Source: a virus
DNA: 53,854 nt
IMG/VR virus record: IMGVR_UViG_3300046011_006760
Coordinates: 1 to 53,854 of that record
Reading direction: 5' to 3' (one strand)
In this document: positions 12,878 to 27,031 of the stretch, one piece after another
Numbering within the stretch: position 1 is the stretch's first letter
Layout of the letters: every line of letters starts with the position of its first letter
Notes under the pieces: generated by a model
Seen by the model: only the letters and a program-made list of their open reading frames with translations
Databases searched by the model: none
Told to the model about the DNA's origin: nothing
Made by a program: the position numbers and the translations under genes

Positions 12878-12908
12878 CAAAGATATGATTTTTTTCTTTA
12901 ATTTACAA
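12878..12908 (-). promoter_or_regulatory. Bacteroidota-type promoter for the 169-aa gene
   Basis: On the minus strand TATCTTTG (12878-12885) is preceded by TTG (12906-12908) with a 20 nt spacer. The ATG lies 17 nt downstream. Confidence 0.75.
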
Positions 12909-12923
12909 CTTTTTTAGTGTAAA

Positions 12924-15299
12924 TTATGATATCTTAACTGTTGAAATGTTATTGTTTTTCACTACCGTGATATTTTTTGTCGACCAGTCTTTAACTAAAT
13001 CGTTATGTGTTATAAAGAAAACAATCTCATACATGTCTTTTATTTTATCAAATAATGTTTTTAATTTCTCTAAGTTCTCTGGTGCTACTTTACCTAACAC
13101 TTCATCAAAGGTTATAAAATTAGGCATAGGTAATGTTGATAATTTACCTAATACGGCTCTTAGCGCTAAACTAGCAGCTGTTTTTTCAAACCCAGACCCA
13201 GATTTTAATAATTTTTGAACATTATCCTTGGTTAACATGAAATGAACATCATTCTTATCATTAATAAATATCTCAACTTCAAAATCTACAACATCTTCTA
13301 ACAATCTTTGTAATTCAGAATTAATTATCGGCAATACAGAACGTAAAACTAATTTGCTAATACCTTTTTTACCAACTAATTCAATGTATAGTTTGAAAAT
13401 TTTATCAATTTCTTCTTCTTTCTGAATCGTTGTTATTAACTTATTTTTGTTAACTATGCTTTCAGCGTTAATTTTTAAGTCAGATTGGATTCTTTCAATT
13501 TTTTTAATAGTTTCATCTTTAGAATAATTCTCAACATTCAAATCTGTTTTTATTTTAGTAATTTGAATATCTAATTTTCTATTCAAAGTAATTGAATCTA
13601 AATTTAAATTGTATTTTTTAAGGTCATTTTTCTTTTCTATGATTTTATTTCTTAAACCACCCATTTCAACCTCAAACCTATCAATATCTAACTCTTTTTT
13701 ATTTTTTTCATCAACTAATTTTTTAGTTGTGTTTAACGATGTTAGTTCAGATTCAGTTAATTTTAATTCTTTTTCGGTTTGTTCAACCTCTTTTAATAAT
13801 TTTTCAATCTCTAACTCATGACTCGCTATGTGTTCTGAATTATCTACATCATCAAGTTTTCTATTACATGACTGACATATACCACCAGCTATTAAACTTG
13901 AAATAACTTTTTGTAATCTTTTAATCTCAGCTTCTTTTAAAGCTAATTTTGTATTTAAAGAAGCTGAATGTTTTGTTAGCTGGTGATGAATGTCTTCGTT
14001 AAAACTTATATCACCTATTTTAAGCAATTCTTCTTTGATTACAGACACTTTATTGTTAATCGTGACACCTTTTTCAGTTAACACCTTAATAGTCTCTTCT
14101 AGGGACTCTGGATTCATTTCTGATATAGTTACATCAATTGTTTGTTTATTTGATAATAACCCATCTCGTTCATCTTCTAGCTCTTTAATTTTATTTTTAT
14201 AAGTTTCTAGACTTTCGTTAAGTGTTTGTTCTAAATCTTGTAAATCTTGAATTTTAGTTTCGTGGTCTTCAATTTCTTGTTTTAATGTAATAACATCATA
14301 TTCGTTAGATTTTTTCTTTTTAGCAAATTCATTATACATTGAACGAGAAATGGTTTCTTTCAATTCTAAAACTTCTAAACCAATTAATCTAGTTAATACT
14401 TTACCAGATTCAGTTGTTGTAAGACCAATAAGTTCATCTAAGTTTTTTTCAGTTGCTAATACAAGCATTTCAAAATCTTTTTCAGAACCAATACTATCTT
14501 TTATTTTTTTAGTCGTTTGTTTAGCGTCCTCTTCATTTAATTCTTCCTCATCACCATCTGGTAAAATCTTATAGTAGTTTACTTTATTGGTAACTGTCCA
14601 ACCACCACCTTTTTTGGCGGTTCTTCTCATTTTACGCTCAATGATTGTTTCTTCATTTTCAATTTCAATCATACCTCTAACAACCAATTCATTCTTATCT
14701 GAAAATTGATTAAATATTTGTTCGTTGGTATCGGTCTTAGTTGTATTACCATGTAATAAAAATTTAATAGCGTCAATTGTAAGTGACGTTTTACCACCTT
14801 GATTACTAGGGACTGAATTAACAATAGTCAACCCTTTAAGTTTTGTAAATGGAACATAATTTTGTTCACCAAAAGATAAAAAATTATCAATCATTATCCA
14901 TTTTATAGACCAAGTCTTATGTTGGATATTATTTAAATCGATATTTAACTCACCGTTTACTTTCTCATCTAAAGCAACGATTCTATTAAAATCAATGTTT
15001 TTACCCTCTCTGTCTAAATACTCTCGCATAAGACTTCTTTGGTAATTAACATCCATGATGTTTTCAATACCAGCACCAGTAATTTCAATAACGTCACCAT
15101 TTGCCGTTCTTTTAACTGGACGGTAAACAATATTTATATTGTTTTTGTTAAAACCATACTTAGAAGCAAAATAATTTTTAATTTTATTCTTAGCTTCGCG
15201 ACTATAATTATGAGGTAAATCATCCCAATAGATTTTAATCTTAGCGTTTGATGATAACAAATTTAAATTGTCAGTCATGTGTTGTGTGTTATTCGCCAT
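12924..15299 (-). CDS. 46: Recombination exonuclease ATPase subunit (T4 gp46 / SbcC / Rad50-like)
   Basis: A 791-residue SMC-type ATPase that works with the gp47 nuclease to resect DNA ends for recombination-dependent replication. Walker A is SVPSNQGGKTS (162-172, Lys170). Coiled coils flank a zinc-hook motif, CQSC (475-478). The ABC signature region is near LLKSGSGFEKTAASLALRAV. Walker B is FITFDEV (Asp732, Glu733), and the H-loop is ITHN (His765). Unusually, Walker A is preceded by about 130 residues; in T4 gp46 and SbcC the ATP-binding fold begins at the N-terminus. This extension (WDDLPHNYSREAKNKIKNYF and onward) looks like a separate folded domain. The gene overlaps the upstream 139-aa gene by 11 bases in an operon with gp47. 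Confidence 0.95.
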   Translation of the reverse strand: MANNTQHMTDNLNLLSSNAKIKIYWDDLPHNYSREAKNKIKNYFASKYGFNKNNINIVYRPVKRTANGDVIEITGAGIENIMDVNYQRSLMREYLDREGKNIDFNRIVALDEKVNGELNIDLNNIQHKTWSIKWIMIDNFLSFGEQNYVPFTKLKGLTIVNSVPSNQGGKTSLTIDAIKFLLHGNTTKTDTNEQIFNQFSDKNELVVRGMIEIENEETIIERKMRRTAKKGGGWTVTNKVNYYKILPDGDEEELNEEDAKQTTKKIKDSIGSEKDFEMLVLATEKNLDELIGLTTTESGKVLTRLIGLEVLELKETISRSMYNEFAKKKKSNEYDVITLKQEIEDHETKIQDLQDLEQTLNESLETYKNKIKELEDERDGLLSNKQTIDVTISEMNPESLEETIKVLTEKGVTINNKVSVIKEELLKIGDISFNEDIHHQLTKHSASLNTKLALKEAEIKRLQKVISSLIAGGICQSCNRKLDDVDNSEHIASHELEIEKLLKEVEQTEKELKLTESELTSLNTTKKLVDEKNKKELDIDRFEVEMGGLRNKIIEKKNDLKKYNLNLDSITLNRKLDIQITKIKTDLNVENYSKDETIKKIERIQSDLKINAESIVNKNKLITTIQKEEEIDKIFKLYIELVGKKGISKLVLRSVLPIINSELQRLLEDVVDFEVEIFINDKNDVHFMLTKDNVQKLLKSGSGFEKTAASLALRAVLGKLSTLPMPNFITFDEVLGKVAPENLEKLKTLFDKIKDMYEIVFFITHNDLVKDWSTKNITVVKNNNISTVKIS

Positions 15300-15708
15300 A
15301 CAAATCTGTTTTCTTTTTCTTTTTTTCTTGTTCTAATTCTATTTTTAACTTTTTGTGTTCAATTTCAAGAGCAGCTAATTCACCTATAGCTTTATCTTTG
15401 TTTTCAGCTGTTGTTTTTATCACACCGTTTAACTTATCAATCTCTTTGGTTAGTTTTTTCATTTCTTTGTTATCAGTTATGAAAACTTCTTTCTCAACAA
15501 TTACTTCTACAATTTTTTCAATAGGTACTTCTACAATCTTTTCAACCTCTTTCTCAACAATTTTTTCTTTTGTGGTTGGTGTTGCACCAAACTTTTCAGA
15601 TGTGAAACCTTGTTTTAAACATTTCAACATAAATTCATCTATATTCGTTATATTGTTTGCTCTACAATAGTTCCAGATTTCATCGTTTAATTCTTTATTC
15701 ACCTCCAT
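15289..15708 (-). CDS. Coiled-coil protein, 139 aa
   Basis: The N-terminal 45 residues form a helical domain (NDEIWNYCRANNITNIDEFM). A Val/Glu/Lys repeat follows, with VEKEV, VEKIVEV, IEKIVEV and VEKEV steps (about residues 50-75). A long charged coiled coil ends in a lysine-rich tail, EQEKKKKKTDLYGE. It overlaps genes on both sides (14 bases with 15695, 11 bases with gp46), so it is translationally coupled in the gp47/gp46 operon and may be an accessory of that complex. That role is inference from position only; no family is recognised. Confidence 0.65.
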   Translation of the reverse strand: MEVNKELNDEIWNYCRANNITNIDEFMLKCLKQGFTSEKFGATPTTKEKIVEKEVEKIVEVPIEKIVEVIVEKEVFITDNKEMKKLTKEIDKLNGVIKTTAENKDKAIGELAALEIEHKKLKIELEQEKKKKKTDLYGE

Positions 15709-15925
15709 CTAACATATTTGTTACATCTTCTTGCGTTTGATGGAATAAACATATCTCTTGTGAGCTTTGGTCCACAAACAAAGCAATTATTGGTTTGTCA
15801 ATTCTATATACCATAGAATTATCATCACTAGGGTCTAAATACCCAACTTCTCCGTTTACAACAGACCATTCACCCATTTCTTCTGGTAGTCCATTTACAA
15901 ACTTTTTTAATTCGTTTAATGTCAT
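15695..15925 (-). CDS. Hypothetical acidic protein, 76 aa
   Basis: This small acidic protein starts MTLNELKKFVNGLPEEMGEW, with a central beta-rich part (MVYRIDKPIIALFVDQ, EICLFHQTQ). There is no metal or catalytic motif. Its ATG shares a base with the gp47 stop (TAATG-type junction at 15925), and it overlaps the next gene by 14 bases, so all are co-translated. It resembles small conserved proteins found between recombination genes in T4-like phages, but I cannot name a family. Function unknown. Confidence 0.65.
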   Translation of the reverse strand: MTLNELKKFVNGLPEEMGEWSVVNGEVGYLDPSDDNSMVYRIDKPIIALFVDQSSQEICLFHQTQEDVTNMLDGGE

Positions 15926-16737
15926 TATAAATTAGTTAATACCTCTGTCCCGTTATCGAGGTCTTCAAGGGACTTTATTTTAAATTGATAGAATGGTGCT
16001 TTGTTTTCAACATCATGCTCTGTAAATGTTTTGGTTTCAACATCCCATAATAAGAATCCATGTTTACTTACATTCTCACCAAAGTTTTGTTGTATCAGAC
16101 TTGATGGATATGCTATTGGTATCCCCTTATGGTTGAACGATTGTCTTTTGTGAATATCACCAAGCATAACCATATCACAACCCTCGAACTCTTCCAACGC
16201 AGCACCATGGTCAATCTCGTAGCCTATATCTGTTTTAGCGTTGAGTACTGGTGCGTGATATAAACCGATATATGTTTTGTCATCACCAAATTGAGCTCTA
16301 GCACCTTCAATATCTGGTCTAGAATTTTCTTCAAAAATAGAATAAACACACCATACGATGTTATCATCTAAATAACACTTTGATTCTTTGAAGTAATTCA
16401 CATTTTTGTCGAATAAAAATTGAACCATCGGTGATATAGAATCCATACGGTCTTTATTATTTTCTAACAAATCATGATTCCCAGCTATTATAATAACTGG
16501 TGCTATTTCTTCAAGTTTTCTAATAAACCATGTTCCAAGCATAAGTTGCTCATTCGAGATTACAATTTTTTGGTGAACTAAGTCCCCAGCAATTACCACC
16601 CTAATTTCTTCTTTTTTATATTCTGTTAACAAATCTGTTAAATCAGAAATTAATTTTTTGAATACTGACATATACTCTTCGTGCATGCGAAAAGTTCTAA
16701 TATGAATATCAGCGAGATGTATTATCTTCTTTACCAT
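15925..16737 (-). CDS. 47: Recombination exonuclease nuclease subunit (T4 gp47 / SbcD / Mre11-like)
   Basis: A 270-residue calcineurin-type phosphoesterase. The metal-binding motifs are in order: HLADIH (residues 7-12, Asp10 and His12), AGDLVH (50-55), AGNHD (85-89), LYHAP, and MLGDIHKR. It degrades DNA ends together with gp46, feeding single strands to UvsX. The length is close to the catalytic core alone, with a short C-terminal cap (PSSLIQQNFGENVSKHGFLL). The start MVKKIIHLADIH lies 29 bases inside the end of the 89-aa gene. It is the second gene of the operon starting at the promoter at 17053. Confidence 0.95.
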   Translation of the reverse strand: MVKKIIHLADIHIRTFRMHEEYMSVFKKLISDLTDLLTEYKKEEIRVVIAGDLVHQKIVISNEQLMLGTWFIRKLEEIAPVIIIAGNHDLLENNKDRMDSISPMVQFLFDKNVNYFKESKCYLDDNIVWCVYSIFEENSRPDIEGARAQFGDDKTYIGLYHAPVLNAKTDIGYEIDHGAALEEFEGCDMVMLGDIHKRQSFNHKGIPIAYPSSLIQQNFGENVSKHGFLLWDVETKTFTEHDVENKAPFYQFKIKSLEDLDNGTEVLTNL

Positions 16738-16978
16738 TTTCTTCGTTGTATTTATTTAATTTGTAAATATATTTATCCATTAAACCTATCATATCTAATA
16801 ATTCTTCTCTATCCATTATTAGAATACTAGCAGTGCTTTGCATTAATAACGCTAATACTTGGTCGGTACCATGTTTTAATTCATGAGTTAAAGCAACTTT
16901 AAATTCTGACCAACCATCATGAACAATTTTATATAATTGTTCATCATTAAAGGGTTCATATAAACTTCTGTTATGCAT
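16709..16978 (-). CDS. Hypothetical helical protein, 89 aa
   Basis: This is the first gene of the gp47/gp46 operon. It is all-helical: NDEQLYKIVHDGWSEFKVAL, then HGTDQVLALLMQSTASILIM, then REELLDMIGLMDKYIYKLNK, with a charged tail. No family is recognised. Its ATG (16976-16978) overlaps the stop of a decayed 3' fragment of the PD-(D/E)XK nuclease gene (16971-17039). This suggests that before the mobile cassette inserted, the nuclease gene overlapped and was coupled to this gene. A canonical host-type promoter (17053-17083) now drives it. Function unknown. Confidence 0.7.
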   Translation of the reverse strand: MHNRSLYEPFNDEQLYKIVHDGWSEFKVALTHELKHGTDQVLALLMQSTASILIMDREELLDMIGLMDKYIYKLNKYNEENGKEDNTSR

Positions 16979-17039
16979 TTTTCATTAAGTTATAGTGGTG
17001 CATCTCAATAAGCTTCTTGGCTTCATGTTTAACACCAAA
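16971..17039 (-). pseudogene. Relic of the 3' end of the PD-(D/E)XK nuclease gene
   Basis: Read on the minus strand this encodes VKHEAKKLIEMHHYNLMKNA and a TAA stop at 16971-16973. The intact nuclease gene ends LKHEARKLIEMHHYNIMKNN, 16 of 20 residues identical. At DNA level 16983-17030 matches 18544-18591 at about three quarters of positions. The relic has no start and its frame closes upstream. It lies on the far side of mobile cassette 1 from the intact gene, so it is the original gene end left behind when the cassette and a replacement end were acquired. Confidence 0.85.
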
Positions 17040-17052
17040 ATTATTTTTTCTA

Positions 17053-17083
17053 CAAAGATACTAAATATTTTAGACTTTTACAA
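17053..17083 (-). promoter_or_regulatory. Bacteroidota-type promoter for the gp47/gp46 operon
   Basis: On the minus strand TATCTTTG (17053-17060) is preceded by TTG (17081-17083) with a 20 nt spacer. It lies between the relic and cassette 1 and drives the gene starting at 16978. Confidence 0.72.
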
Positions 17084-17090
17084 GAATTAT

Positions 17091-17103
17091 AGATATTTAT
17101 TTG
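17091..17103 (+). promoter_or_regulatory. ATATTTAT element before cassette 1
   Basis: The plus strand reads AGATATTTATTTG, 28 nt upstream of the ATG at 17131. It has the same core as the recurrent elements of the minus-strand operons. Confidence 0.3.
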
Positions 17104-17130
17104 TATAACAAAAATTAAAATTGTATTACA

Positions 17131-17883
17131 ATGGAATTAAAAAAATTTCAAAAAACATTATTAACATCTTTAAATGAAAATAGATTTTCATTAATAAAAC
17201 ACTCCAGACAAATGGGTGTTTCAACTGTTTTAATAGAATTTATAATAGAAAATTTATTAAACGAAAATAACAAAACTATAGTTTTGTTTACTGAGAAATT
17301 ATCCTCATGCAAAGAATTATTAAATAAAATTAGATTAGATAATCGAATTATTTCTTTAAAAAAAACAAAAGATACCGTTTCATATTTAGAATTTGAAAAT
17401 GGTAATCGAATAAAAATAGCGTCAAGTTTAGACGGTTTGAGAGGTTATGGTTTTGAATACTTAATAATAGACAACGCTTGTTTTGTTGGTAATTTAGATA
17501 ATTTATTAACAAATATTTTACCTATATTAAACGCTAAAACAAATTCTAAATTAATACTTGCGTCATCAAACAAAAAAGGTTATTCATATTTTAACGAATT
17601 GTTTAGTAATGATAACAATATTTTTATTAAGAACATACTACATTGGAGTATTGATGAAGAAAATCTTAAAAAATATGAAGAATATAGACTTATTGTGGAT
17701 TCTGAAACTTTTAAAGTTGAGATGGATTTAGAGGATGTCTCTGGGAAATTAAATAAGGACCATTTATTAAGTTTTAGGGTAAATGATGATTTATACATGG
17801 CTTTATCAAAAAAATTATTAGGTTTAGATTTGTCATTATCTGAATACCTAAGAATGTTAATTAAACGTGATACAGATGAATAA
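17131..17883 (+). CDS. Truncated terminase-like ATPase with C-terminal ribbon-helix-helix domain (250 aa)
   Basis: Residues 1-195 resemble the N-terminal ATPase of large terminases of the T4 gp17 type. FSLIKHSRQMGVSTVLIEFI carries the Walker-A-like SRQMGVST, YLIIDNACFV is the Walker B position with Asp followed by Asn instead of the catalytic Glu, and LILASSNKKGYSYFNELF matches the motif III/coupling region. There is no RNase H-like nuclease domain; full terminases run to 500-600 residues. Instead the C-terminus, LLSFRVNDDLYMALSKKLLG and LSLSEYLRMLIK, is a typical ribbon-helix-helix DNA-binding domain. It overlaps the HNH gene by 8 bases. It is therefore part of the cassette, not the packaging enzyme, and its ATPase activity is doubtful. 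Confidence 0.75.
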   Translation: MELKKFQKTLLTSLNENRFSLIKHSRQMGVSTVLIEFIIENLLNENNKTIVLFTEKLSSCKELLNKIRLDNRIISLKKTKDTVSYLEFENGNRIKIASSLDGLRGYGFEYLIIDNACFVGNLDNLLTNILPILNAKTNSKLILASSNKKGYSYFNELFSNDNNIFIKNILHWSIDEENLKKYEEYRLIVDSETFKVEMDLEDVSGKLNKDHLLSFRVNDDLYMALSKKLLGLDLSLSEYLRMLIKRDTDE

Positions 17884-18535
17884 AAAATATTTAACAGAAG
17901 AAGAACGTAAAGAGGCTAAACGTTTATATAATAAAGAATATAGAGAAAAAAATAAAGAAAAAATAAAAGAATTACAATCAAATTGGTTAAAAAATAACCC
18001 TGATTATTTTAAAAATTTAGCCAAAACGGAAAAAGAGATTAATCGTAAAAAAGAATGGAATACTAATAATTTGGATGTCAATAGAAAATCTAAAAAAGAA
18101 TGGGTTAAAAATAACCCAAATAAAGTTAAGGAAGCAAAAAATAAATGGTTAGACAAACGACCTAATTATTATAATGAATATATTAAAAAGCGTAGTGAAA
18201 TAGATTTTCTTTTTAAATTATCCAATAATATTAGATGTTTAATAAGAAATTCTATTAAAAGAAACGGTTTTGATAAAAATAATACTACAAGTAATATTTT
18301 AGGTTGTACTATTGAAGAATTCAAACAACACCTTGAATCTAAATTTGAATCATGGATGACTTGGGATAATTATGGTTTATATAACGGAACAGCTAACTAT
18401 GGTTGGGATATGGACCATATAATACCATCTAGTTCAGCAATTACAAAAGAAGAATTACTGAAATTAAACCATTTCAGCAATCTTCAACCGTTATGTTCTT
18501 ATTTTAATAGAGATGTAAAAAAAGATATTTTTTAA
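17876..18535 (+). CDS. HNH homing endonuclease
   Basis: A 219-residue protein starting at ATG 17876 (MNKKYLTEEERKEAKRLYNK). An earlier GTG at 17867 exists, but the ATG overlaps the upstream stop in the usual coupled way. The N-terminal 100 residues are basic helices with repeated WxKNNPxxxKxxxxxW units that probably grip DNA. The C-terminus holds the nuclease: ILGCTIEEFKQHLESKF, then WDMDHIIPSSSA with the catalytic Asp-His, then LKLNHFSNLQPLCSYFNRDV with the second His and Asn. This is the standard free-standing phage HNH endonuclease layout. It converges on the nuclease gene, overlapping its stop by 4 bases. Confidence 0.92.
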   Translation: MNKKYLTEEERKEAKRLYNKEYREKNKEKIKELQSNWLKNNPDYFKNLAKTEKEINRKKEWNTNNLDVNRKSKKEWVKNNPNKVKEAKNKWLDKRPNYYNEYIKKRSEIDFLFKLSNNIRCLIRNSIKRNGFDKNNTTSNILGCTIEEFKQHLESKFESWMTWDNYGLYNGTANYGWDMDHIIPSSSAITKEELLKLNHFSNLQPLCSYFNRDVKKDIF

Positions 18536-19314
18536 TTATTCTTCATTATATTATAATGGTGCATTTCTATTAATTTACGTGCTTCATGCTTGAGATACAT
18601 TATTTGTATTTTTTGGAAACTCATTTTTTCTTTATCCCAATAACCAATACAGATTTGTCTACATTTTCTATGTGGAAATTCTAATTCGTACATGTAAGCA
18701 TACACGCTTAATTGTAATGTATAAATTGACCATTGACATGCTTGTAAGTGGTCGAATGGTTTGAAAAGAGTTTCATAACCGTATTGGTTAAAGAAGTTGA
18801 ATTCTCTGTTGGTTTTCCAGTCCCAAACATCAAAGTAAGTATCATCAATATCGATAATAAGGTCAGACATACCAGCTAGTTCATATTGTTCAGAGAACAT
18901 AATTCTTTCTGGCCACATTGCGATACCTTCATCAATTTTTAAGTCGTTAAAACCATCAATCACTTTTTGTTCAAACTTACCTTCTTCTGTGTCGTCTGGA
19001 AAATACCATTTGTTGGCTAACAAATATCTTTCAACAATATCGTGCACCTTTGTACCATACACATTCGCTTCATCATTAAGCATTTGCCAATAATCAAGTA
19101 TTTGTTGTTGCGTCAAACCAATATATCGTTCTTGTTTTACGTTGTTTGGTTGATTGACAATAGCGGCTGACACAGCTTCAGAGTCAAAGTGTGGTTCGAT
19201 TGATGTAAGTGTAGTTGTAACTGATTTATAAATTTTACCAGTTTCTCTGTGATGATATTTGTGTTCAATTGGTTCCAAGTAGACTGGCCCAACCCATAGT
19301 TTAGCATTTGACAT
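18532..19314 (-). CDS. PD-(D/E)XK superfamily nuclease (260 aa)
   Basis: A RecB/Cas4-like nuclease core is visible: YGTKVHDIVERYL (residues 86-98, His91), a Glu in SEQYELAGMSDLIIDID (141-157, with GMSD giving Asp151), YFDVWDWKTNR (160-170, the DWK catalytic motif) and the QLSVYAYMYE helix (201-210, QxxxY motif IV). Such phage enzymes process DNA ends during recombination or packaging. The gene has its own promoter (19331-19362). Its 3' end borders mobile cassette 1 and is probably a replacement copy, since a diverged duplicate of its last 20 codons lies across the cassette at 16971-17039. The C-terminal helix HEARKLIEMHHYN is duplicated there. Confidence 0.88.
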   Translation of the reverse strand: MSNAKLWVGPVYLEPIEHKYHHRETGKIYKSVTTTLTSIEPHFDSEAVSAAIVNQPNNVKQERYIGLTQQQILDYWQMLNDEANVYGTKVHDIVERYLLANKWYFPDDTEEGKFEQKVIDGFNDLKIDEGIAMWPERIMFSEQYELAGMSDLIIDIDDTYFDVWDWKTNREFNFFNQYGYETLFKPFDHLQACQWSIYTLQLSVYAYMYELEFPHRKCRQICIGYWDKEKMSFQKIQIMYLKHEARKLIEMHHYNIMKNN

Positions 19315-19330
19315 AGTTTTTCGTTTATTA

Positions 19331-19362
19331 CAAATATACTAAATTTTTATGCCAAATGCAAA
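19331..19362 (-). promoter_or_regulatory. Bacteroidota-type promoter for the PD-(D/E)XK nuclease
   Basis: On the minus strand TATATTTG (19331-19338) is preceded by TTTG (19359-19362) with exactly 20 nt between them. The ATG at 19314 is 17 nt downstream. Confidence 0.78.
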
Positions 19363-20307
19363 TTATTCTTTTAATTTGTGACTACTCATTAATAACTTAA
19401 CAATACCACTATTACCCAAATATTGAAATACACTGGAAGGGTCATAACCATCTGGTGGTGTACATATTTTTATACGGTCTTTTAAATCACCAGTATTTAA
19501 TTCCCAATAAAGTCTTTCAGCGTCATCATAAGCGTCACTATCTAATAATATAACAACAAACGCTTTAGCTTTTTCGTGTAATAGATATTTTAATTTATCA
19601 CTAATAAACTTACCTAATAATGGTATTGAATTAGGTACAACAATATGGTCAGTCGCACCTTCAACTAAATAAATTGTTGCGTCCCAATTTATTTTATTCT
19701 CATTAAATATTATTTCATATTTTTCAGCATGAGGGTTAAGGTATTTTACTTTGGTTTTTTTATTTAAAAACCATCTAGCTATAAAATAATTAACATTACC
19801 ATCAGAATCATAAGAAGGTATTATTATCCTATTTTGGAAGTCACCAGATATTGTATAACCGATATTATATTCTTTTATAATTTCATCGGTAATACCTCTA
19901 TCTTTTAAATATTTTATAGCTAAATCTGATTTGTAGTCAAGTTTGGTACATTCTGATAATTTTTTATACCCTTCTGGTAACCTAACAATTATTTTTTCAG
20001 AATTTTTAGAACCATTGTAGTTGTATTCTGGTTTGAATAAATTATATTCTCTTAGGTGGCTTTTAGTTCCGTATTTTTTAACTAGATTTTCTAAAGAACC
20101 GTACATGTGATTTGTTTCGTAACAAACCCAGCATTTATATACACCTTTATGGTAATTAAGTTCTAAATTACCCTTACCATCACCATTATATAAACCTTTA
20201 TCAGCAGAGCACGCTGGACAGTCAAAGGCTGTTTGACCTGATTCTTGATTATGTTTTCTAGGTTCCCCCAGAAATGATTCAAATATACTTAATAAATAAT
20301 TTGACAT
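19363..20307 (-). CDS. DNA primase (DnaG-type zinc finger and TOPRIM)
   Basis: This 314-residue primase has two cysteine pairs forming a zinc ribbon: CPAC (residues 30-33) and CWVC (59-62). The TOPRIM domain has IYLVEGATD (212-220, Glu216) and VVILLDSDAYDDA (251-263, Asp256 and Asp258). It would synthesise RNA primers for lagging strands with the gp41-like helicase at 49412-50860. There is no separate helicase-binding domain, so it is shorter than DnaG. The first 20 codons and the promoter are duplicated as a relic across mobile cassette 2 (21276-21350), indicating that the present 5' end is a replacement copy. Confidence 0.92.
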   Translation of the reverse strand: MSNYLLSIFESFLGEPRKHNQESGQTAFDCPACSADKGLYNGDGKGNLELNYHKGVYKCWVCYETNHMYGSLENLVKKYGTKSHLREYNLFKPEYNYNGSKNSEKIIVRLPEGYKKLSECTKLDYKSDLAIKYLKDRGITDEIIKEYNIGYTISGDFQNRIIIPSYDSDGNVNYFIARWFLNKKTKVKYLNPHAEKYEIIFNENKINWDATIYLVEGATDHIVVPNSIPLLGKFISDKLKYLLHEKAKAFVVILLDSDAYDDAERLYWELNTGDLKDRIKICTPPDGYDPSSVFQYLGNSGIVKLLMSSHKLKE

Positions 20308-20321
20308 ATTTAATTTTTAGA

Positions 20322-20329
20322 CAAATATA
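20322..20329 (-). promoter_or_regulatory. Bacteroidota-type -7 box of the primase gene
   Basis: The minus strand reads TATATTTG 15 nt before the primase ATG. No TTG lies at the usual spacing, unlike most other boxes of this type here. A second copy of this box occurs at 21343-21350. Confidence 0.55.
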
Positions 20330-20380
20330 CTAAAATTATTTTAAAATATTTAATTTTTACCCGACTTTTTTATTTTTATC

Positions 20381-20397
20381 CGATATTTATTATTAAA
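20381..20397 (+). promoter_or_regulatory. ATATTTAT element before cassette 2
   Basis: The plus strand reads CGATATTTATTATTAAA, 9 nt upstream of the ATG at 20407. It has the same core as the recurrent minus-strand elements. Confidence 0.35.
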
Positions 20398-20406
20398 CAA
20401 AAAATT

Positions 20407-20646
20407 ATGGGACGACCAAAACTAGAAGAAAAAGAAAAAAAAATTAAATTAGGTATAACTATATCTAAAAATTCATTTACCATGTTAGAAATGTTAACAA
20501 ATAATAAATCAGAATTTATTGAAAAATTGATAAATAATCATGTAAAGAACATAACAATAACAAATAATATTGAACTTAAATACGATGAAAATAACAATTA
20601 TATTGGTAGTAAAACCACTAAAATAATTGATGTTGATGAAAATTAA
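20407..20646 (+). CDS. Small ribbon-helix-helix DNA-binding protein, 79 aa
   Basis: The start MGRPKLEEKEKKIKLGITIS gives a basic arm and a beta strand. Two helices follow, NSFTMLEMLTNNKSEFIEKL and INNHVK, the layout of a ribbon-helix-helix (CopG/Arc-like) domain that binds DNA as a dimer. The C-terminal 30 residues are strand-like (ITITNNIELKYDENNNYIG). It overlaps the GIY-YIG gene by 11 bases and is translationally coupled to it. A repressor or targeting partner for the endonuclease is the natural inference, and the parallel RHH domain in cassette 1 strengthens it. Confidence 0.7.
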   Translation: MGRPKLEEKEKKIKLGITISKNSFTMLEMLTNNKSEFIEKLINNHVKNITITNNIELKYDENNNYIGSKTTKIIDVDEN

Positions 20647-21271
20647 ATCTGGTATTTATAAAATAACGAATAAAAATAATGGTCGTTATTATATTGGAAG
20701 TTCCGTAAATATTAATAATAGATGGAATGAACACAAACGCACGTTAAAACAACACAAACATGATAATCACTTTCTACAAAAGTCATGGAATAAACATGGT
20801 GAAGAATCATTTTTATTTGAAATTATTGAATATGTTTTAGATTTAGATAAATTATTAGAACGTGAACAATACTATTTAGATTTAATAACACATAATAAAA
20901 AAATAACTTATAATTTATGTAAGACAGCTGGGAATATGTTAGGGTTTAAACATACAGAAGAATCTAAAAATAAGATGTCTAATAGTCGTATTGGTAATAA
21001 AAATAGTTTAGGGTTTAAACACACAGAAGAAACTAAAAATAAGATGTCTAAATCTCATTTTGGTCTTAAACATGATGATAAAACAATTAGTTTACTAATT
21101 AATATAGGTAAAAAAAATGATTTAAAATCAAAAAAATTTAATAGTAAAATTTCTGATGATATAAGAACAGAACTAATAAATAAATATAGTTCTGGTTCTT
21201 ATTCAACTAGAAAACTTAGCGTTTTATATAATATTAGTAAATCAACAATATGGAATATTGTTAGAAAATAA
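20636..21271 (+). CDS. GIY-YIG homing endonuclease with NUMOD3 repeats
   Basis: A 211-residue protein starting at ATG 20636 (MKIKSGIYKITN); other in-frame ATG/TTG codons just upstream add only a few residues. SGIYKITNKNNGRYYIGSSV is the GIY-YIG core, with the conserved Arg in NNRWNEHKR and Glu in LEREQYYLD. Two NUMOD3 DNA-binding repeats follow (LGFKHTEESKNKMSNSRIG and LGFKHTEETKNKMSKSHFG). A C-terminal helix-turn-helix has YSTRKLSVLYNISKSTIWNI. This is the full I-TevI-like free-standing homing endonuclease layout. Its stop codon lies almost at the edge of the primase relic. Confidence 0.95.
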   Translation: MKIKSGIYKITNKNNGRYYIGSSVNINNRWNEHKRTLKQHKHDNHFLQKSWNKHGEESFLFEIIEYVLDLDKLLEREQYYLDLITHNKKITYNLCKTAGNMLGFKHTEESKNKMSNSRIGNKNSLGFKHTEETKNKMSKSHFGLKHDDKTISLLINIGKKNDLKSKKFNSKISDDIRTELINKYSSGSYSTRKLSVLYNISKSTIWNIVRK

Positions 21272-21275
21272 CAGT

Positions 21276-21338
21276 ATCGTGGTTGTGTTTTCTAGGGTCA
21301 CCTAAAAAACTTTCAAATATGCTAGCTAAGTAATTCAT
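21276..21338 (-). pseudogene. Relic of the 5' end of the primase gene
   Basis: From ATG 21336-21338 the minus strand encodes MNYLASIFESFLGDPRKHNHD. The intact primase begins MSNYLLSIFESFLGEPRKHN. Similarity stops at about codon 20, where cassette 2 begins; the frame then runs into a stop at 21261. The upstream -7 box is duplicated too. It is the original gene start, stranded when the cassette and a new 5' end were inserted. Confidence 0.88.
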
Positions 21339-21342
21339 CTAG

Positions 21343-21350
21343 CAAATATA
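21343..21350 (-). promoter_or_regulatory. Stranded -7 box upstream of the primase relic
   Basis: The minus strand reads TATATTTG, 5 nt before the relic ATG, as a duplicate of the box at 20322-20329. If active it would transcribe the relic and the antisense of cassette 2. Confidence 0.5.
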
Positions 21351-21377
21351 CTAATAAAAAATTATATTTACAATAAT

Positions 21378-22034
21378 TTATTTATTTTCATTTTCTAAAT
21401 TTCTTTTGTTGAAATAAGCTAGACCACATACGTAGGCATCTGAAGTATCAAAAGTTTCTTTTTTAAGTTTGTTGTTTTTATCATAAAACCAACTAATCTG
21501 TGGTTCTAATTCAGCAACTTTTTCCCATAAAACATATTTTTTATCAATATCAAAAGGGTAACCACCAAAAAGAACTGGTGTGTTTTTTGATATTTGTTTT
21601 TCTGTTAAGGGTGTACCATCTTTTTTAGTAGTTCTAACCGCCATTAAATCTGGAAAAGCGTATTTACGAGCATCATAAGATGAAATAAATTCTGGAACAA
21701 CACCCAATGTATCGTATACCGATTTAGATATCATACCATTGAACCTTAAAAGAGTGGCAATTGTATATACGTTATTTGATTGAAGAAGAGGTTCTTCAAT
21801 GATTACTTTAGTTATACCAAAATCAGCATAATTTGATAAGAACTCACTTTCAAAAATTTCAACTTTTCTAAAAAGTTCTTCCATTTTATCTGTAGGTTTT
21901 GGTTTAACTTTAGGACTGACATGGTGTAATAGTTTAATATCACCCTTATTACCTTTGTCCTCAAAAAGTGCAATACCTATAGTAGATGTAGATACATCCA
22001 ATGCTAATAAAAATTGTGGTTCTTTTTCTTCCAT
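21378..22034 (-). CDS. RuvC-like Holliday junction resolvase
   Basis: A 218-residue RNase H-fold protein. FLLALDVSTSTIGIALF (residues 8-24) has the first catalytic Asp13 in the RuvC-like DxSTxxxG strand. KVIIEEPLLQSNNVYT (76-91) supplies Glu80/Glu81 and the QSN helix. FDTSDAYVCGLAYF (195-208) gives the C-terminal acidic pair (Asp196, Asp199) in the DxxDAxxxA helix. Such resolvases cut recombination intermediates so that branched DNA can be packaged, replacing the T4 gp49 role. It stands alone between the terminator at 22054-22085 and the stranded primase promoter. Confidence 0.85.
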   Translation of the reverse strand: MEEKEPQFLLALDVSTSTIGIALFEDKGNKGDIKLLHHVSPKVKPKPTDKMEELFRKVEIFESEFLSNYADFGITKVIIEEPLLQSNNVYTIATLLRFNGMISKSVYDTLGVVPEFISSYDARKYAFPDLMAVRTTKKDGTPLTEKQISKNTPVLFGGYPFDIDKKYVLWEKVAELEPQISWFYDKNNKLKKETFDTSDAYVCGLAYFNKRNLENENK

Positions 22035-22053
22035 ATAACTTTTTTATAGTAAT

Positions 22054-22085
22054 TTAAGACTTTATTGTGAAAAATAAAGTCTTAA
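22054..22085 (-). terminator. Terminator hairpin at the end of the tail module
   Basis: TTAAGACTTTATT (22054-22066) pairs with AATAAAGTCTTAA (22073-22085), a perfect 13-bp stem with a 6-nt loop, overlapping the stop codon of the 400-aa tail gene. Confidence 0.75.
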
Positions 22086-23284
22086 ACACTAATTTTTATT
22101 GAAAGAGCTAAAAATTCATTTATATTTTTAGATATTTGTCGGTCAGGTTTAGCATAAGCTATTAAATTACCAACATCATCATATAAACCAACTTCAGAAA
22201 TTCTAGGGATATCATCAAATTCAAATGTAGGGTTAGTTGATGACCCAAATTCACCTCTATCAGCAATACAATTAACTATTTGGTAAACACCTGTTGATTG
22301 ACTATCGAAACTAACTGTTGTTGCTGTACTAGCTGATGATGTAAAATTATTAACAATTGTAGGGTCCGTAATAACGATAAAACCTTTATCTAAATACGCT
22401 ATACCAACTAAGGTATCCGCTGTTAATGATAAATTTGTATTTGTTTGATAATTATATGCTTTTTTACCGTTATAACTAAAAGGTCTGTTTGTGTTATAAC
22501 CAGTAGCCCAACTTAAACTAGAATCACCACCATTTGGTGTTTTTATTGAATCACAAACTAACATAGATACATTGTTACCAAACATACTACTTTTAAGGTT
22601 ACCATCGGTTAACAAACTATCCATTATATTTAATGGTTGTGTGTTATACTGATAAGTAGAATAAATAGTATATGTTCCAGCACTAGTTGGTAATTCAATT
22701 TTTAAAGATTTACCATCTATCAATTCACCATAAGTAGAATCGTTAATAGCAATTGCCACAATTTTATTAACCGCGAACCCGCTAAATGCTGTATTCGCGT
22801 ATCCGTTATTTGTTGCCGTTGTTGATGTAAATGTGGTAAAGTTTGTATCGTTTATCGGTAACCCAAAAGAATAATATAAATTTGTTTTACTATCAGTAGT
22901 GTAATCTGTTCTATTGATAACAGAAAAACTTAAATTACTACCACTTATTGTTGTGTAACCAATTAATTCTGATTCTGTTAAAATATTTGTAGATTGTGTA
23001 CCTACAGATTTAGTTAGTAATCCACTAGTATTAACTATAAGTGGATTTTTAATACCTGTAACTTTAGTTGTACTATTATTGTTAGTGTTATTAACACCTA
23101 TATCACCAGCTATACTAGGTACTTCACCTGTTCCTAAGGATAGATTGGTGTAGTAGTTAGCATCTGAATCACCCAAACTAAAAGTTTTTATTAAACCATT
23201 ATTTGTTGAAATCATTTTTTGTCTGCCTATCGGTGTTAATTTAGCAGTTAATGTAAGTGTTGTGGCTGTATTGTTATATCCCAT
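22082..23284 (-). CDS. Tail fibre/collar-like virion protein (400 aa)
   Basis: The N-terminus has LTLTAKLTPIGRQKMISTNN and FSLGDSDANYYTN, and the C-terminus has PRISEVGLYDDVGNLIAYAK. The upstream 715-aa protein has the same two landmarks: KLTQKGREQLAQGK...WAVGDSELNY and IKITEVGIYDSSNNLV. The C-terminal pattern (I/V)(S/T)EVG(L/I)YD resembles the E(I/V)GxYDxxGxLI strand of P2-type tail-fibre N-terminal domains. The body is rich in Thr, Asn and Ser, typical of fibres. It is the last gene of the tail module; the 12-nt gap to the upstream gene implies co-transcription. It is probably a tail-tip or fibre-attachment protein. Confidence 0.65.
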   Translation of the reverse strand: MGYNNTATTLTLTAKLTPIGRQKMISTNNGLIKTFSLGDSDANYYTNLSLGTGEVPSIAGDIGVNNTNNNSTTKVTGIKNPLIVNTSGLLTKSVGTQSTNILTESELIGYTTISGSNLSFSVINRTDYTTDSKTNLYYSFGLPINDTNFTTFTSTTATNNGYANTAFSGFAVNKIVAIAINDSTYGELIDGKSLKIELPTSAGTYTIYSTYQYNTQPLNIMDSLLTDGNLKSSMFGNNVSMLVCDSIKTPNGGDSSLSWATGYNTNRPFSYNGKKAYNYQTNTNLSLTADTLVGIAYLDKGFIVITDPTIVNNFTSSASTATTVSFDSQSTGVYQIVNCIADRGEFGSSTNPTFEFDDIPRISEVGLYDDVGNLIAYAKPDRQISKNINEFLALSIKISV

Positions 23285-23296
23285 TTTTTTATTATA

Positions 23297-25444
23297 TTAA
23301 AAATCCATACTTAATTCTAGCATTATTGTGTTACCTCCAGATAAAGGAATAGGTGTTGATAATTTACCGATACAAACTAAATTATTACTAGAATCATAAA
23401 TACCAACCTCAGTTATTTTTATTGTAGCTGGGTTAGTAGCTGGATTAGTACTTCTAGTTGGGTTTGTAGTAGAGTCAAACTGACCCGCATTTACCGTAAT
23501 GTTAAAAATTGTTTTGTAAATTGTTGCACCAATGTACGTTGTTAAATTACCATAGAAAAATCTTTCATCACCAAATTGTAAATAAGTAGGGTTTGTATTT
23601 GCTGGTAAATTTAAAGATTGTATCGCATTATATGTTGTTGCGTTGTTATCTTTTAATTTATCTAAAATAAAACCAGTGATATTAGAGTTTTGATTTTCTA
23701 ATAATTTAGGGTCTATCGTTTTGTTAGCAACAGATGTGATAGCTGTTGATGTAAAATCATATTGTTTCCAACTACCAGATGCTGGTCTTGTTGTTGATTC
23801 AGCAACTATTTGATACAATAGCTTAAATGTATCAGCATAAAAACCATACCCATCATAATCAACATTTTCTATCTTACGCATATAAGTTAATAAATCAGTC
23901 CCATTTATTCTAAACGCAACATCTTTTGCTGTCGATGTGTTGTTTGTGATTTTTATATATTTTTGACATGATAGTGAAGTAGTTAAACCACTATTGTAAT
24001 TGTTTTCTAATGCGTATGAAATATACATAGTTTCACCAACTGCTAACACACCTGTAGAAGTACCACCAGATGGTGCTTGTAACACAGCTGATAATTCTGG
24101 TAATGTCCAGTTTCTATTTGATTTGTATGACATAGCTGAAACAATTTCATCATCAGTAAACACAACTGTTTTTAGTTGTGGGAATACTTTACCAACAACA
24201 TTAGCCGTTAAACCAGTGTTTATTTTTGTTGGGTCCTCGATTAAATCAATATATTCAATATCAGTATTTGTTATGTATTTAGTACTACCAGACCCTATAA
24301 AATTCATACCCATACTAGTACCACTAGCAGTGGCACCTGTTGTTCTATGATACATTAAGTCAGGTAATGTAATGTTTAAATATTTACCTGATGTTAAATC
24401 AGTGTAAAAATATTCACCATATAAATTAGAAATTGTGTTATTTGTATAATGAACTATTGATATAGATTTGCTTACATCGTCTAAATAACTTAAACCAACA
24501 CCATCACATGTTGCTGGACCTGTCGTGCTATCAGATTCACAATCAATTTCAAAATATGGTTGTTTTTGTCCTAAGAAATTATAAGAACCAAATTTAGTAT
24601 AATCTTCATATAAATTTGTAGATGTTAAACCAGTGATACCAGCTATATTTTCACACCAAACATTATTCATATTCCAAACGGGAACATCTGAACATGTTAC
24701 ATTGTTAGCTGAATCAAAAGATAAAGTACCAGTATCCCAATAAGCTGTTGTATTACCAGTTGCTATCGTATTATAAACCTCACCACCTCTATAAACAATA
24801 ACTTGATTAGTGGTTGTTTGTGAAGAAAAATTAGGTAAGTTTCTATCTAAAGTTAAAGTATTCGTACCTACTGATTGAACCTTATACCATAAATTAGGTA
24901 GTGGTTTTGTGTTCGCGTTAACTGTTATGTTACCAGCGCTAGTATTAGACGATTTTAACAAAATTAAATCACCAACGTTAATTGTACTTCCAGTTGGTAT
25001 TGTTATGTTCAATACAGTACCACCAGTTAATACATTATTTGATACAGTGGTTGTGAATGGTGTATAAGTACTACCAGTTAAAGTTGTATATATACCACCA
25101 GAATTAGAGAAAAAACCTCTTTCTGTTGCAGCATTGTTTACTTGTGCTTTGATAACATTTAAAACGCTAGCATCTATAGTGTTTAAAGGACTAGACGCAT
25201 TGCTAGGTTTAACAAAATATTTAAGATTAGGTTCTCTATCTACTGGTCTCATAACAACACTTGTTGCAGATAATGAAACATCTGTTGGGTTTGCGTCTAC
25301 GTTAGCTTCCCTAACATAATTTAATTCAGAATCACCAACAGCCCAATATGTAAAATTTAATTTACCTTGTGCTAATTGTTCTCTACCTTTTTGTGTTAAT
25401 TTAATGCTAACAAACGGGCTAGTACTTTGTATTATATAACTCAT
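23297..25444 (-). CDS. Tail fibre/collar-like virion protein (715 aa)
   Basis: A longer relative of the 400-aa protein downstream. The shared N-terminal block is VSIKLTQKGREQLAQGKLNF plus YWAVGDSELNY (about residues 12-43), and the shared C-terminal block is ITEVGIYDSSNNLVCIGKLS (about residues 680-700). The middle is Thr/Asn/Ser-rich with possible beta-sandwich repeats. It has its own ATATTTAT element 30 nt before the ATG. The pair probably arose by duplication and now occupies adjacent positions in the baseplate or fibres. Exact role unknown. Confidence 0.65.
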   Translation of the reverse strand: MSYIIQSTSPFVSIKLTQKGREQLAQGKLNFTYWAVGDSELNYVREANVDANPTDVSLSATSVVMRPVDREPNLKYFVKPSNASSPLNTIDASVLNVIKAQVNNAATERGFFSNSGGIYTTLTGSTYTPFTTTVSNNVLTGGTVLNITIPTGSTINVGDLILLKSSNTSAGNITVNANTKPLPNLWYKVQSVGTNTLTLDRNLPNFSSQTTTNQVIVYRGGEVYNTIATGNTTAYWDTGTLSFDSANNVTCSDVPVWNMNNVWCENIAGITGLTSTNLYEDYTKFGSYNFLGQKQPYFEIDCESDSTTGPATCDGVGLSYLDDVSKSISIVHYTNNTISNLYGEYFYTDLTSGKYLNITLPDLMYHRTTGATASGTSMGMNFIGSGSTKYITNTDIEYIDLIEDPTKINTGLTANVVGKVFPQLKTVVFTDDEIVSAMSYKSNRNWTLPELSAVLQAPSGGTSTGVLAVGETMYISYALENNYNSGLTTSLSCQKYIKITNNTSTAKDVAFRINGTDLLTYMRKIENVDYDGYGFYADTFKLLYQIVAESTTRPASGSWKQYDFTSTAITSVANKTIDPKLLENQNSNITGFILDKLKDNNATTYNAIQSLNLPANTNPTYLQFGDERFFYGNLTTYIGATIYKTIFNITVNAGQFDSTTNPTRSTNPATNPATIKITEVGIYDSSNNLVCIGKLSTPIPLSGGNTIMLELSMDF

Positions 25445-25473
25445 AATTTTGTTTTGTCTTTTATCTTTATTTT

Positions 25474-25487
25474 AATTATAAATATGC
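25474..25487 (-). promoter_or_regulatory. Recurrent GCATATTTATAATT element before the 715-aa gene
   Basis: The minus strand reads GCATATTTATAATT, 30 nt upstream of the ATG at 25444, between two virion genes. Its long distance from the start suits a promoter better than a translation signal. Confidence 0.4.
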
Positions 25488-25501
25488 AATTGTAAAGAAT
25501 A

Positions 25502-27031
25502 TTAATATGAATTTATCGAATTCGTTGCAATTGTTATTGGTATTATATCACTATATGAATAACTATTGATAATGTTGCCACAAATAGTCTCATAATTTTT
25601 ATCATTTTTAACTCTATAAAATAACCTATCACCATAAGTGTAACCAGAAACTGGGAAATCAACACTATAAAAAGGTGAACCAACGTAATAGTCAGTTATT
25701 GACGAATAAACAATATTTTTAAAATCAACATCTGTAGATAATTGTAATGTAAAATATCCGTTAACTTTATTTGGTGTTGGTGTGACTGACCATGAAGCTG
25801 ATGGGCTTTCAGTTATTATATCACCAACAACACCATCTGGAAAATAAGATATAGTTATGATGTCATTTAAAACAACATCACCATTAAGTATTATTCTTCT
25901 AGGGTTTGATGTTGATTGGTAAAAATCAATCCCATTCGCCAACATAACACCATTAATCATAAGTAAAACTTTGCTAAAATCTATTGGTTTAGCCGATGTA
26001 AATAATTCGTATCTGTTGGTAGTTGTGTTGTAATATACTAAATAATTCCCTTGTCCATTTGTTGCTCCGCTAGGTATCACACTATTTATTTCAATAATGT
26101 CATTTTTTAACGTGTTTGGTGAAGATGAAGTATATATTATAGTCACAACATCTTCAGGGTCCAAAGGTGCATTTAAATAGACAATACTATTACCAGAATA
26201 AGTATAGTCAGCATTTGGTGCTAGAACTAAACCATTTAAAGTTAATATAAAAGGTGTGTCTATTTGAGCAGGAATCCCTATCATTGTGTTATTTTGTTCT
26301 GGTATTAATTCGTTACCATCTTCAAATTCCTCTTCATCAAAATTAATGTTTAATTGGTCAATGTCAGGATAAATTGTGTAATAATTTATTGGTAAGTAAG
26401 ATTGTTGTAAAGAACTGTTGGCCACACTATTACTAGCATTATAACTGAATTGTGGTGTAGCAGCAGCTTCAATAACAGCAAAATAATAATCAAAATTTTT
26501 ATTATAGATACCGTATTCTGAACCACCAACATATTTAGATGTGTCTATTGTATAACCTAATTTACCCATGTAATCAGTACATGCTGAAAAACTATAGAAC
26601 CCTTTTATCATATATTCAGCATCTAGTGTTAATCCAGATGATGGAATTAATTGTGTTGTCGCACTAGCGGTTAATGAAGAATAATATATATTGTTTGACG
26701 AATAACTAGGTATTGCAGTAAAACTATTATTATTTTCTTCAAATTTATATAATTTATAATTAAAAATTGCGTTGTTAATTGTAAAGCTTTCAGTATTTGA
26801 GGTAAAAGTAATTTTTAATGGTATATTTTGAGTTTCACCTGAAATTATATGAGAGTATCCACTAACAGATGTTGCACTTAATACAGTACAATCTAAGGTT
26901 GTTGCACCACTAATATAATATGATGGTGCATTGAAAACACAGATATCTGAACTCATATTAAATATGGTTATATCTTTGTTTCTCAAAGCACTTACATTTG
27001 TTTGTGGGTATATTCTTTCTTGATATCTCAT
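25502..27031 (-). CDS. Virion protein with paired fibre-type domains (509 aa)
   Basis: Residues 1-200 are Thr/Ser/Asn-rich beta structure. Two copies of a fibre-type domain follow: FILTLNGLVLAPNADYTYSG (about residues 260-280) ending DPEDVVTIIYTS, and VLLMINGVMLANGIDFYQST (about 355-375) ending LNDIITISYFPDG. The NGxxLxxGxDYxxxGNxIxxxxxxxxxDxVxVxY pattern is familiar from tail-fibre and baseplate proteins of T4-like phages. The C-terminus may be an Fn3-like domain (TLQLSTDVDFKNIVYSS). There is a 5-nt gap from the 80-aa gene upstream. It is most likely a fibre or baseplate-periphery component. Confidence 0.65.
   Translation of the reverse strand: MRYQERIYPQTNVSALRNKDITIFNMSSDICVFNAPSYYISGATTLDCTVLSATSVSGYSHIISGETQNIPLKITFTSNTESFTINNAIFNYKLYKFEENNNSFTAIPSYSSNNIYYSSLTASATTQLIPSSGLTLDAEYMIKGFYSFSACTDYMGKLGYTIDTSKYVGGSEYGIYNKNFDYYFAVIEAAATPQFSYNASNSVANSSLQQSYLPINYYTIYPDIDQLNINFDEEEFEDGNELIPEQNNTMIGIPAQIDTPFILTLNGLVLAPNADYTYSGNSIVYLNAPLDPEDVVTIIYTSSSPNTLKNDIIEINSVIPSGATNGQGNYLVYYNTTTNRYELFTSAKPIDFSKVLLMINGVMLANGIDFYQSTSNPRRIILNGDVVLNDIITISYFPDGVVGDIITESPSASWSVTPTPNKVNGYFTLQLSTDVDFKNIVYSSITDYYVGSPFYSVDFPVSGYTYGDRLFYRVKNDKNYETICGNIINSYSYSDIIPITIATNSINSY

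Follow-up and report, generated by a model that had tools for sequence, protein, structure and literature searches.

A GIY-YIG endonuclease cassette between a chimeric phage primase gene and its stranded original start

From alignment with its relatives, the DNA primase gene of the viral genome studied here (the window, that is, the whole stretch of 53,854 nucleotides analysed) is a chimera, with a foreign 5′ end on a recipient body, and the original start of the gene lies stranded behind a GIY-YIG endonuclease gene. We think it highly probable that this arrangement is a homing cassette that replaces one end of its target gene.

Results

The primase locus of the window has the following parts.

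19363..20307, minus strand: DNA primase gene, chimeric (recipient-type body and foreign 5′ end); PHROG 47, DNAG_N; body 98.7% identical to L003
20232..20307, minus strand: foreign replacement 5′ end of the primase gene, ~76 nt, from alignment with L003, tract end set by eye; 93.3% identical to L015 over 60 nt
20322-20329, minus strand: TATATTTG box of the working primase gene, from the sequence
20308..20406, no strand assigned: divergent promoter region borne by the cassette; 98.0% identical to L015, 84.7% to L009
20407-20646, plus strand: 79-aa ORF (MGRPKL...), from alignment; overlaps the start of the endonuclease gene
20636-21271, plus strand: GIY-YIG homing endonuclease gene, 211 aa; Pfam GIY-YIG, NUMOD3 and C-terminal helix-turn-helix; I-TevI catalytic domain by sequence and fold
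21272..21338, minus strand: relic, the first 67 nt of the original primase gene, now stranded; 67/67 nt identical to L003
21343-21350, minus strand: TATATTTG box of the relic, from the sequence

The working primase gene begins with MSNYLLSIFESFLGEPRKHN at 20307 (minus strand). Across the cassette, which consists in order of the new primase 5′ end with its promoter, the 79-aa ORF and the I-TevI-like GIY-YIG gene, a stranded start of the same gene, MNYLASIFESFLGDPRKHNHDT, runs from 21338 to 21272 (minus strand), and a TATATTTG box stands upstream of both copies. TAnnTTTG is a Bacteroidota promoter element, the meaning given to these boxes here. The two starts with their boxes, one intact and one stranded, are where a sequence-only reading of this DNA had placed them. 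That reading also had the stranded copy end at about codon 20, which proved too short: the old start is indeed stranded, but the relic extends to nt 67, where codon 23 opens. It directly abuts the endonuclease stop codon, which lies on the opposite strand and ends at the adjoining base. The residues of the relic equal those with which the primase of a cassette-free relative begins (tblastn E ~3e-11). Since 22/22 residues and 67/67 nt agree, and the upstream sequence and box are the same, the relic is more than a chance resemblance.

In Pfam, the 211-aa endonuclease matches GIY-YIG (44.3 bits), NUMOD3 and a helix-turn-helix, and its catalytic domain matches I-TevI by sequence and fold (1mk0/1ln0). 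It combines a GIY-YIG catalytic domain with separate DNA-binding modules, as do members of the I-TevI group, and its gene is free-standing beside the target, with no intron, like the seg and mob genes of T4. The primase ORF is whole, not interrupted and spliced as with a group I intron or intein, and no Rfam family, introns included, reached its gathering score in window 12900-26000; the cassette is thus kept without intron or intein, as had been proposed.

The 79-aa ORF was found by alignment in all six cassettes compared. Its model is a strand-helix-helix of low confidence (mean pLDDT 66) with no match in the PDB at E<=0.001, and our guess would be that the product is a small DNA-binding regulator. 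The divergent promoter region holds two direct repeats of the TCGGATAAAAA kind (window 20308-20406, L015 and L009), a candidate operator for this product.

We rejected an assembly error as the cause of the duplicate. A second contig, L002 (IMGVR_UViG_3300046009_004585), spans window positions 18639-25307, including both junctions, with 99.985% identity over 6,669 bp, and the similar arrangements in other lineages described below also argue against it.

A scan of viral contigs with the window primase gave 12 loci, among which L003, L004 and L005 have no primase cassette, and the relic is their working primase start. Indeed, the match to L003 (67/67 nt) continues into the upstream sequence and box. 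Over the same stretch the window's working start is only 72.7% identical to L003's contig, against 98.7% for the rest of the primase; the clustered differences end at about nt 76, with one mismatch ~20 nt further before background identity is reached. The start of the gene was therefore replaced and the old one left behind. Among 33 other primases, the nearest to the working start is that of the cassette-bearing L155 (90%), and the nearest to the body is that of the cassette-free L078, which is L003's contig (98%). The sequence-only reading had proposed that the endonuclease came with a diverged 5′ end and promoter, stranding the old start, and that cassette-free relatives should resemble the relic. 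L003-L005 support the proposal: they carry the relic's sequence as their primase start, and the working start is the foreign one.

The cassette has also moved laterally together with its gene end. Between the window and L015, the endonuclease gene (92.7% identity), the small ORF (92.5%), the promoter region (98.0%) and the new 5′ end (93.3%) are all more alike than the flanking RuvC (84.4%) and tail genes (78.8%), and a cassette at 92-98% between genes at 79-84% points to lateral movement. The same holds for L009 (endonuclease 87.2%, small ORF 89.2%, promoter region 84.7%, against RuvC 78.4% and tail gene 71.2%), except that the new 5′ end, at 73.3%, falls below RuvC.

Alignment of nine primases yielded a collection of 78 loci, and the window exonuclease another of 61. 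When primase starts were searched by tblastn against 216 loci and the window, convincing second starts appeared in five lineages: the window (equivalent to L002/L014/L081/L172), L015/L155, L101/L192, L184 and L187. A sixth lineage with cassette and relic, L321/L322, brings the primase loci to six. Double rows in L060, L128, L131/L176 and L141 were set aside, as they overlap one start or are weak. One of the other pairs is L184 with L179, which are 98.9-99.3% identical in aligned blocks; the cassette is in L184 and is of a different type from the window's. Through codon 25, the L184 relic equals the L179 primase start; the L184 working start is 67.9% identical to it and returns to near identity at the CPAC codons. 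L155 and L083 give the same picture of replacement on a background of 91.6%.

An insertion flanked by two copies of one gene end could also arise if insertion of the cassette had doubled the primase start of the phage itself, with later divergence of the two copies. This would predict a working copy like that of the relatives and a drifting relic, and the reverse is seen: identity is 100% for the relic and 72.7% for the intact copy with L003, and 97.4% and 67.9% with L179. The relic, not the working copy, matches the relatives in both the window and L184, which contradicts own-gene duplication there, though this contradiction does not extend to the RuvC 5′ events described below; overall we consider duplication extremely improbable.

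The relics end at closely similar points. In window numbering, by eye, these are nt 67 in the window, 62 in L155, 72 in L184, 68 in L187 and 72-73 in L101, L101 and L187 being placed with no close cassette-free relative. Where close relatives serve as reference, the gap between relic and endonuclease stop codon is 0 nt (window), 2 nt (L155) or 1 nt (L184). If the enzyme cuts, the alignments suggest that the break should fall between the relic end (nt 62-73 across the five events) and the return to recipient sequence; in the window, where this return comes after about nt 76, it would be codons 21-28 rather than the 19-21 first suggested. CNNNG, a cleavage motif of I-TevI, was sought by eye at codons 19-21 and rejected, as many cassette-free primases do not have it. 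In L009-type phages the cassette adjoins the RuvC stop and has no relic.

Just beyond the relic ends lies the codon that follows a GQ pair. We compared it in 34 related primases picked by hand from the collected loci, 6 with a primase cassette and 28 without. The residue is I, M or V in 24 of the 28 cassette-free primases (the exceptions being L082, L103, L107 and L110) and in none of the six cassette-bearing ones, which have T, T, A, C, S and C (Fisher p = 1.6e-4, for sequences that are not independent). L321, from outside this set, also has T. These residues make the codon a possible resistance codon.

The window contains a second cassette on the same plan, missed in the earlier reading, at the 3′ end of an exonuclease gene.

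18532..~18592, minus strand: foreign replacement 3′ end of the PD-(D/E)XK exonuclease gene, from alignment with L003, border set by eye
17867..18535, plus strand: HNH-type endonuclease gene, 222 aa; Pfam HNH E 0.04, 14.5 bits, below the cut-off of 21.4; relatives in 34 loci
17131..17883, plus strand: accessory terminase-like ORF; Terminase_6N, 28 bits
16971..17032, minus strand: relic, the stranded original exonuclease 3′ end; 100% identical to L003 over 16901-17032
17053..17060, minus strand: TATCTTTG box before the relic and the next gene, from the sequence

The stretch 17033-18537 is absent from L003 and L005 and present in L004. Over the relic stretch the window's exonuclease 3′ end is 70% identical to L003's contig, and the relic is 98.3% identical when the stretch takes in one foreign base. 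These alignments indicate that an HNH cassette replaced the 3′ end of the gene and stranded the old one. The terminase-like ORF lies upstream of the HNH gene and overlaps it; its C-terminal end, like the 79-aa ORF, resembles a ribbon-helix-helix by eye.

The exonuclease relic extends over the start codon of the following gene (16709-16978), and the primase relic retains its box and start codon, so that the relics might be kept for a function of their own, such as an extra primase promoter or antisense control of the endonuclease. Such a function would leave the origin of the relics unexplained, the window relic may just not have had time to decay, and phages of the L009 type do without one; we consider this explanation very improbable.

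Queries made from gene ends found relics at further core genes: RuvC 5′ in L163, L105, L109 and L178, and weakly in L108 (E 0.009); RuvC 3′ in L163, L105, L108, L188 and L198; primase 3′ in L171; and exonuclease 3′ in the window/L004, L216 and L200. Rows at E 0.0003-0.009 (L087/L161, L098/L099/L167/L168, L141, L194-L196) and rows that lie near or within the gene (L139, L147, L148) were left out as chance or artefact. ORFs in the relic intervals match GIY-YIG or HNH, with scores below the Pfam cut-offs for HNH and, in L109, for GIY-YIG; L216, which is full of frameshifts, has only pieces and no open ORF of 70 aa. In L145/L216/L047 (IMGVR_UViG_3300040786_000030) many frameshifts interrupt the core genes and the HNH cassette, and these look more like sequencing error than biology. 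L163, L105 and L108 have a relic and an endonuclease gene at both ends of RuvC.

At the RuvC-primase junction, 9 of 13 HEG-bearing lineages have a relic (L105, L108, L163, L188, the window, L198, L184, L101 and L187), and none was found in the other four (the L009 group, L060, L209 and L135, the last with a weak row at E 0.024); L155, also relic-bearing, stands outside this table. Among the 60 HEG-free lineages, 57 were scanned (L141, L147 and L148 being left out) and none showed a relic, a contrast that is partly trivial because 30 of the 57 junctions are under 60 nt and too short to hold one. Strong matches to a primase start at ten HEG-free and four HEG-bearing junctions were read as true starts, at a non-ATG or earlier codon.

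For 16 relics, both copies of the gene end were compared with the relative whose gene body is most similar. The relic is the closer copy in nine (primase 5′ in the window, L184 and L192; RuvC 3′ in L163, L106 and L198; primase 3′ in L171; exonuclease 3′ in the window and L200) and the intact end in seven, namely all five RuvC 5′ events and RuvC 3′ in L108 and L188. Only the window, L184 and, more distantly, L200 have relatives close enough for a clean answer, and there the relic is the native end. By this comparison, replacement is clean for primase 5′ and exonuclease 3′ ends; with the intact end closer in every RuvC 5′ event, the test did not favour replacement there.

Three more scans added 174 loci, 170 of them with a recognised endonuclease ORF, and for each flanking gene a copy of either end was sought across the endonuclease at E<=1e-3. 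There were 27 rows for the near end on the same strand, against 4 in three control classes (three rows for the far end on the same strand, one for the near end on the opposite strand and none for the far end on the opposite strand); L312/L313 make up two of the three far-end rows and are the reciprocal of a near-end case. The 27 rows do not give a frequency, because rows repeat and the queries came from relic-bearing loci: some contigs are repeated or near-identical, some lineages were already known, and the L255 row is itself a GIY-YIG-like ORF, not a target gene.

Phage genomes are mosaic, and on this ground the block might have arrived by ordinary phage recombination, leaving one ragged border, with the endonuclease uninvolved. 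We regard such passive exchange as unlikely: the relics of five primase lineages end within one narrow region, every core-gene relic interval examined except that of the frameshifted L216 contains an endonuclease ORF, and copies are biased to the near end and the same strand.

Besides RuvC, the targets in this wider set include the 5′ end of thymidylate synthase (L312/L313 and L272, identified by Pfam, and L317, recognised by its similar start) and of an oxidoreductase-like gene (L279/L280), and the 3′ end of a portal gene (L347), a PD-(D/E)XK nuclease gene (L254) and an unnamed gene (L344). In L312, L317 and L272 a GIY-YIG gene lies upstream of thymidylate synthase and is preceded by a stranded start of the latter's own kind; td is the home of I-TevI. 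A separate scan, from which further rows (tail-gene paralogues, repeated endonuclease genes) were dropped by eye, added DNA ligase 5′ (L036, with a NUMOD3 ORF), a DUF932 gene 5′ (L048, where the ORF is an HNH-type relative with no Pfam match) and gp25 5′ (L042 4638-5387, also L040). The L042/L040 GIY-YIG ORF itself opens with the stranded first ~12 codons of the baseplate gene gp25, and an intact gp25 follows; here the old gene start has become fused to the endonuclease.

In GenBank phages (463 records with a match), nine GIY-YIG neighbourhoods (L217-L225) held no convincing gene-end relic; four rows in L221-L223, two of them in L222, were put down to chance or to a repeat belonging to the endonuclease itself, and a tenth region, the primase neighbourhood L226, gave two rows. 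Other kinds of insertion were also seen. In L207 6001-7785 (also L205 and L206) the exonuclease frame continues through an in-frame insertion of ~1 kb with LAGLIDADG_3 just under the cut-off, probably an intein by its sequence. In L009 8165-10010 and L200 7440-9077 a gp47-like nuclease gene is split, and a ~300-aa ORF with weak TnsA-like or endonuclease matches follows the N-terminal part.

Discussion

How would such a cassette move? Most likely the GIY-YIG enzyme cuts primase alleles that lack the cassette, near the beginning of the gene. A phage that carries the cassette would then serve as repair template, from which the endonuclease gene, its small partner ORF, the promoter and a diverged primase 5′ end resistant to cutting would be copied in, and exchange would stop in conserved primase sequence just downstream, giving a working chimeric primase. 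The recipient's own 5′ end and promoter would be left stranded behind the endonuclease gene, and splicing would be unnecessary. The left junction could be made by homologous repair against the relic in the donor, as in the WHO model, or by end joining. We count in favour of the cassette mechanism the comparisons with L003-L005, L184/L179 and L155/L083, the greater likeness of the cassette than of its flanks between the window and L015, the I-TevI-type nuclease, the clustered relic ends, the GQ codon, the exonuclease cassette and the 27 rows against 4; we count against it the relic-less L009 cassette and the intact end being closer in 7 of 16 cases, all five RuvC 5′ events included.

The closest known parallels are in fungi. 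In Torulaspora and Lachancea yeasts, WHO elements home into FBA1, whose 3′ end they replace; as in the phages, a stand-alone endonuclease gene lies beside the target, the gene end is replaced and diverged, fragments of the old end are stranded on the far side, nothing is spliced, and either orientation to the target occurs (PMC7282813). They differ in being LAGLIDADG and intein-derived, in acting on the 3′ end only of a nuclear gene, and in that cutting and resistance have been demonstrated (PMC7282813), whereas the phage cassettes encode GIY-YIG or HNH enzymes, target phage genes at the 5′ or 3′ end, and carry a promoter at the 5′ end. A foreign working end with a stranded end like that of cassette-free relatives, which marks a WHO-like mechanism, was found for the window primase, L184 and the window exonuclease; with GIY-YIG and primase, the window's element is outside the WHO family proper, which has a LAGLIDADG/HO-like endonuclease aimed at FBA1. 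Four mitochondrial genes of Glomus possess two carboxy ends, a native one resembling those of relatives and a foreign one that arrived with a mobile ORF (PMC3630166). The mobile ORFs of Glomus and Allomyces likewise lie between a foreign end in the working gene and a native end resembling relatives, and are GIY-YIG in one of the four Glomus cases (atp9); the hybrids are mitochondrial, and those described concern carboxy-terminal ends (PMC3630166). The phage cassettes share the logic of the WHO and fungal elements, and differ in nuclease family and type of genome.

Among phages, the free-standing GIY-YIG and HNH endonucleases of T4-like phages belong to the same nuclease families, have neighbouring targets, undergo co-conversion and displace or embed promoters, but their intronless homing involves intergenic insertion (PMC2988022). 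Phage endonuclease insertions are described as intergenic, in introns or gene-splitting (PMC2988022, PMC10448857); the available parts of these two papers describe no gene-end relics, and the word stem 'duplicat' has 0 occurrences in the PMC2988022 text. By sequence and fold, the window's enzyme shares its catalytic domain with I-TevI of the T4 td intron. The gene for I-TevI lies within a group I intron, of which none was found in window 12900-26000. In nad2, a copy of the first third is 99.6% identical to the gene, and is thus no replacement (PMC5626475). The part of PMC6221350 available held nothing relevant to gene-end replacement, and by title and opening of the abstract none of the matches listed, in partial coverage of the literature, concerned gene-end replacement in phages or a 5′ version of it.

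Introns and inteins let homing elements live in essential genes through splicing. Gene-end replacement is a third way, described earlier for yeast FBA1 and fungal mitochondria, and in phages it recurs, uses two types of nuclease, affects 5′ as well as 3′ ends and brings a promoter along. Because nearly identical phages exist in cassette-bearing and cassette-free form, the recipient, the junction and the foreign tract can be placed to within a few nucleotides, and cutting, resistance and repair become directly testable. One phage core gene can combine two histories in a single reading frame. More generally, and at the primase in particular, such a cassette probably forces a change at a conserved codon, the I, M or V after GQ, and would in this way drive the chimeric evolution of a replication protein.
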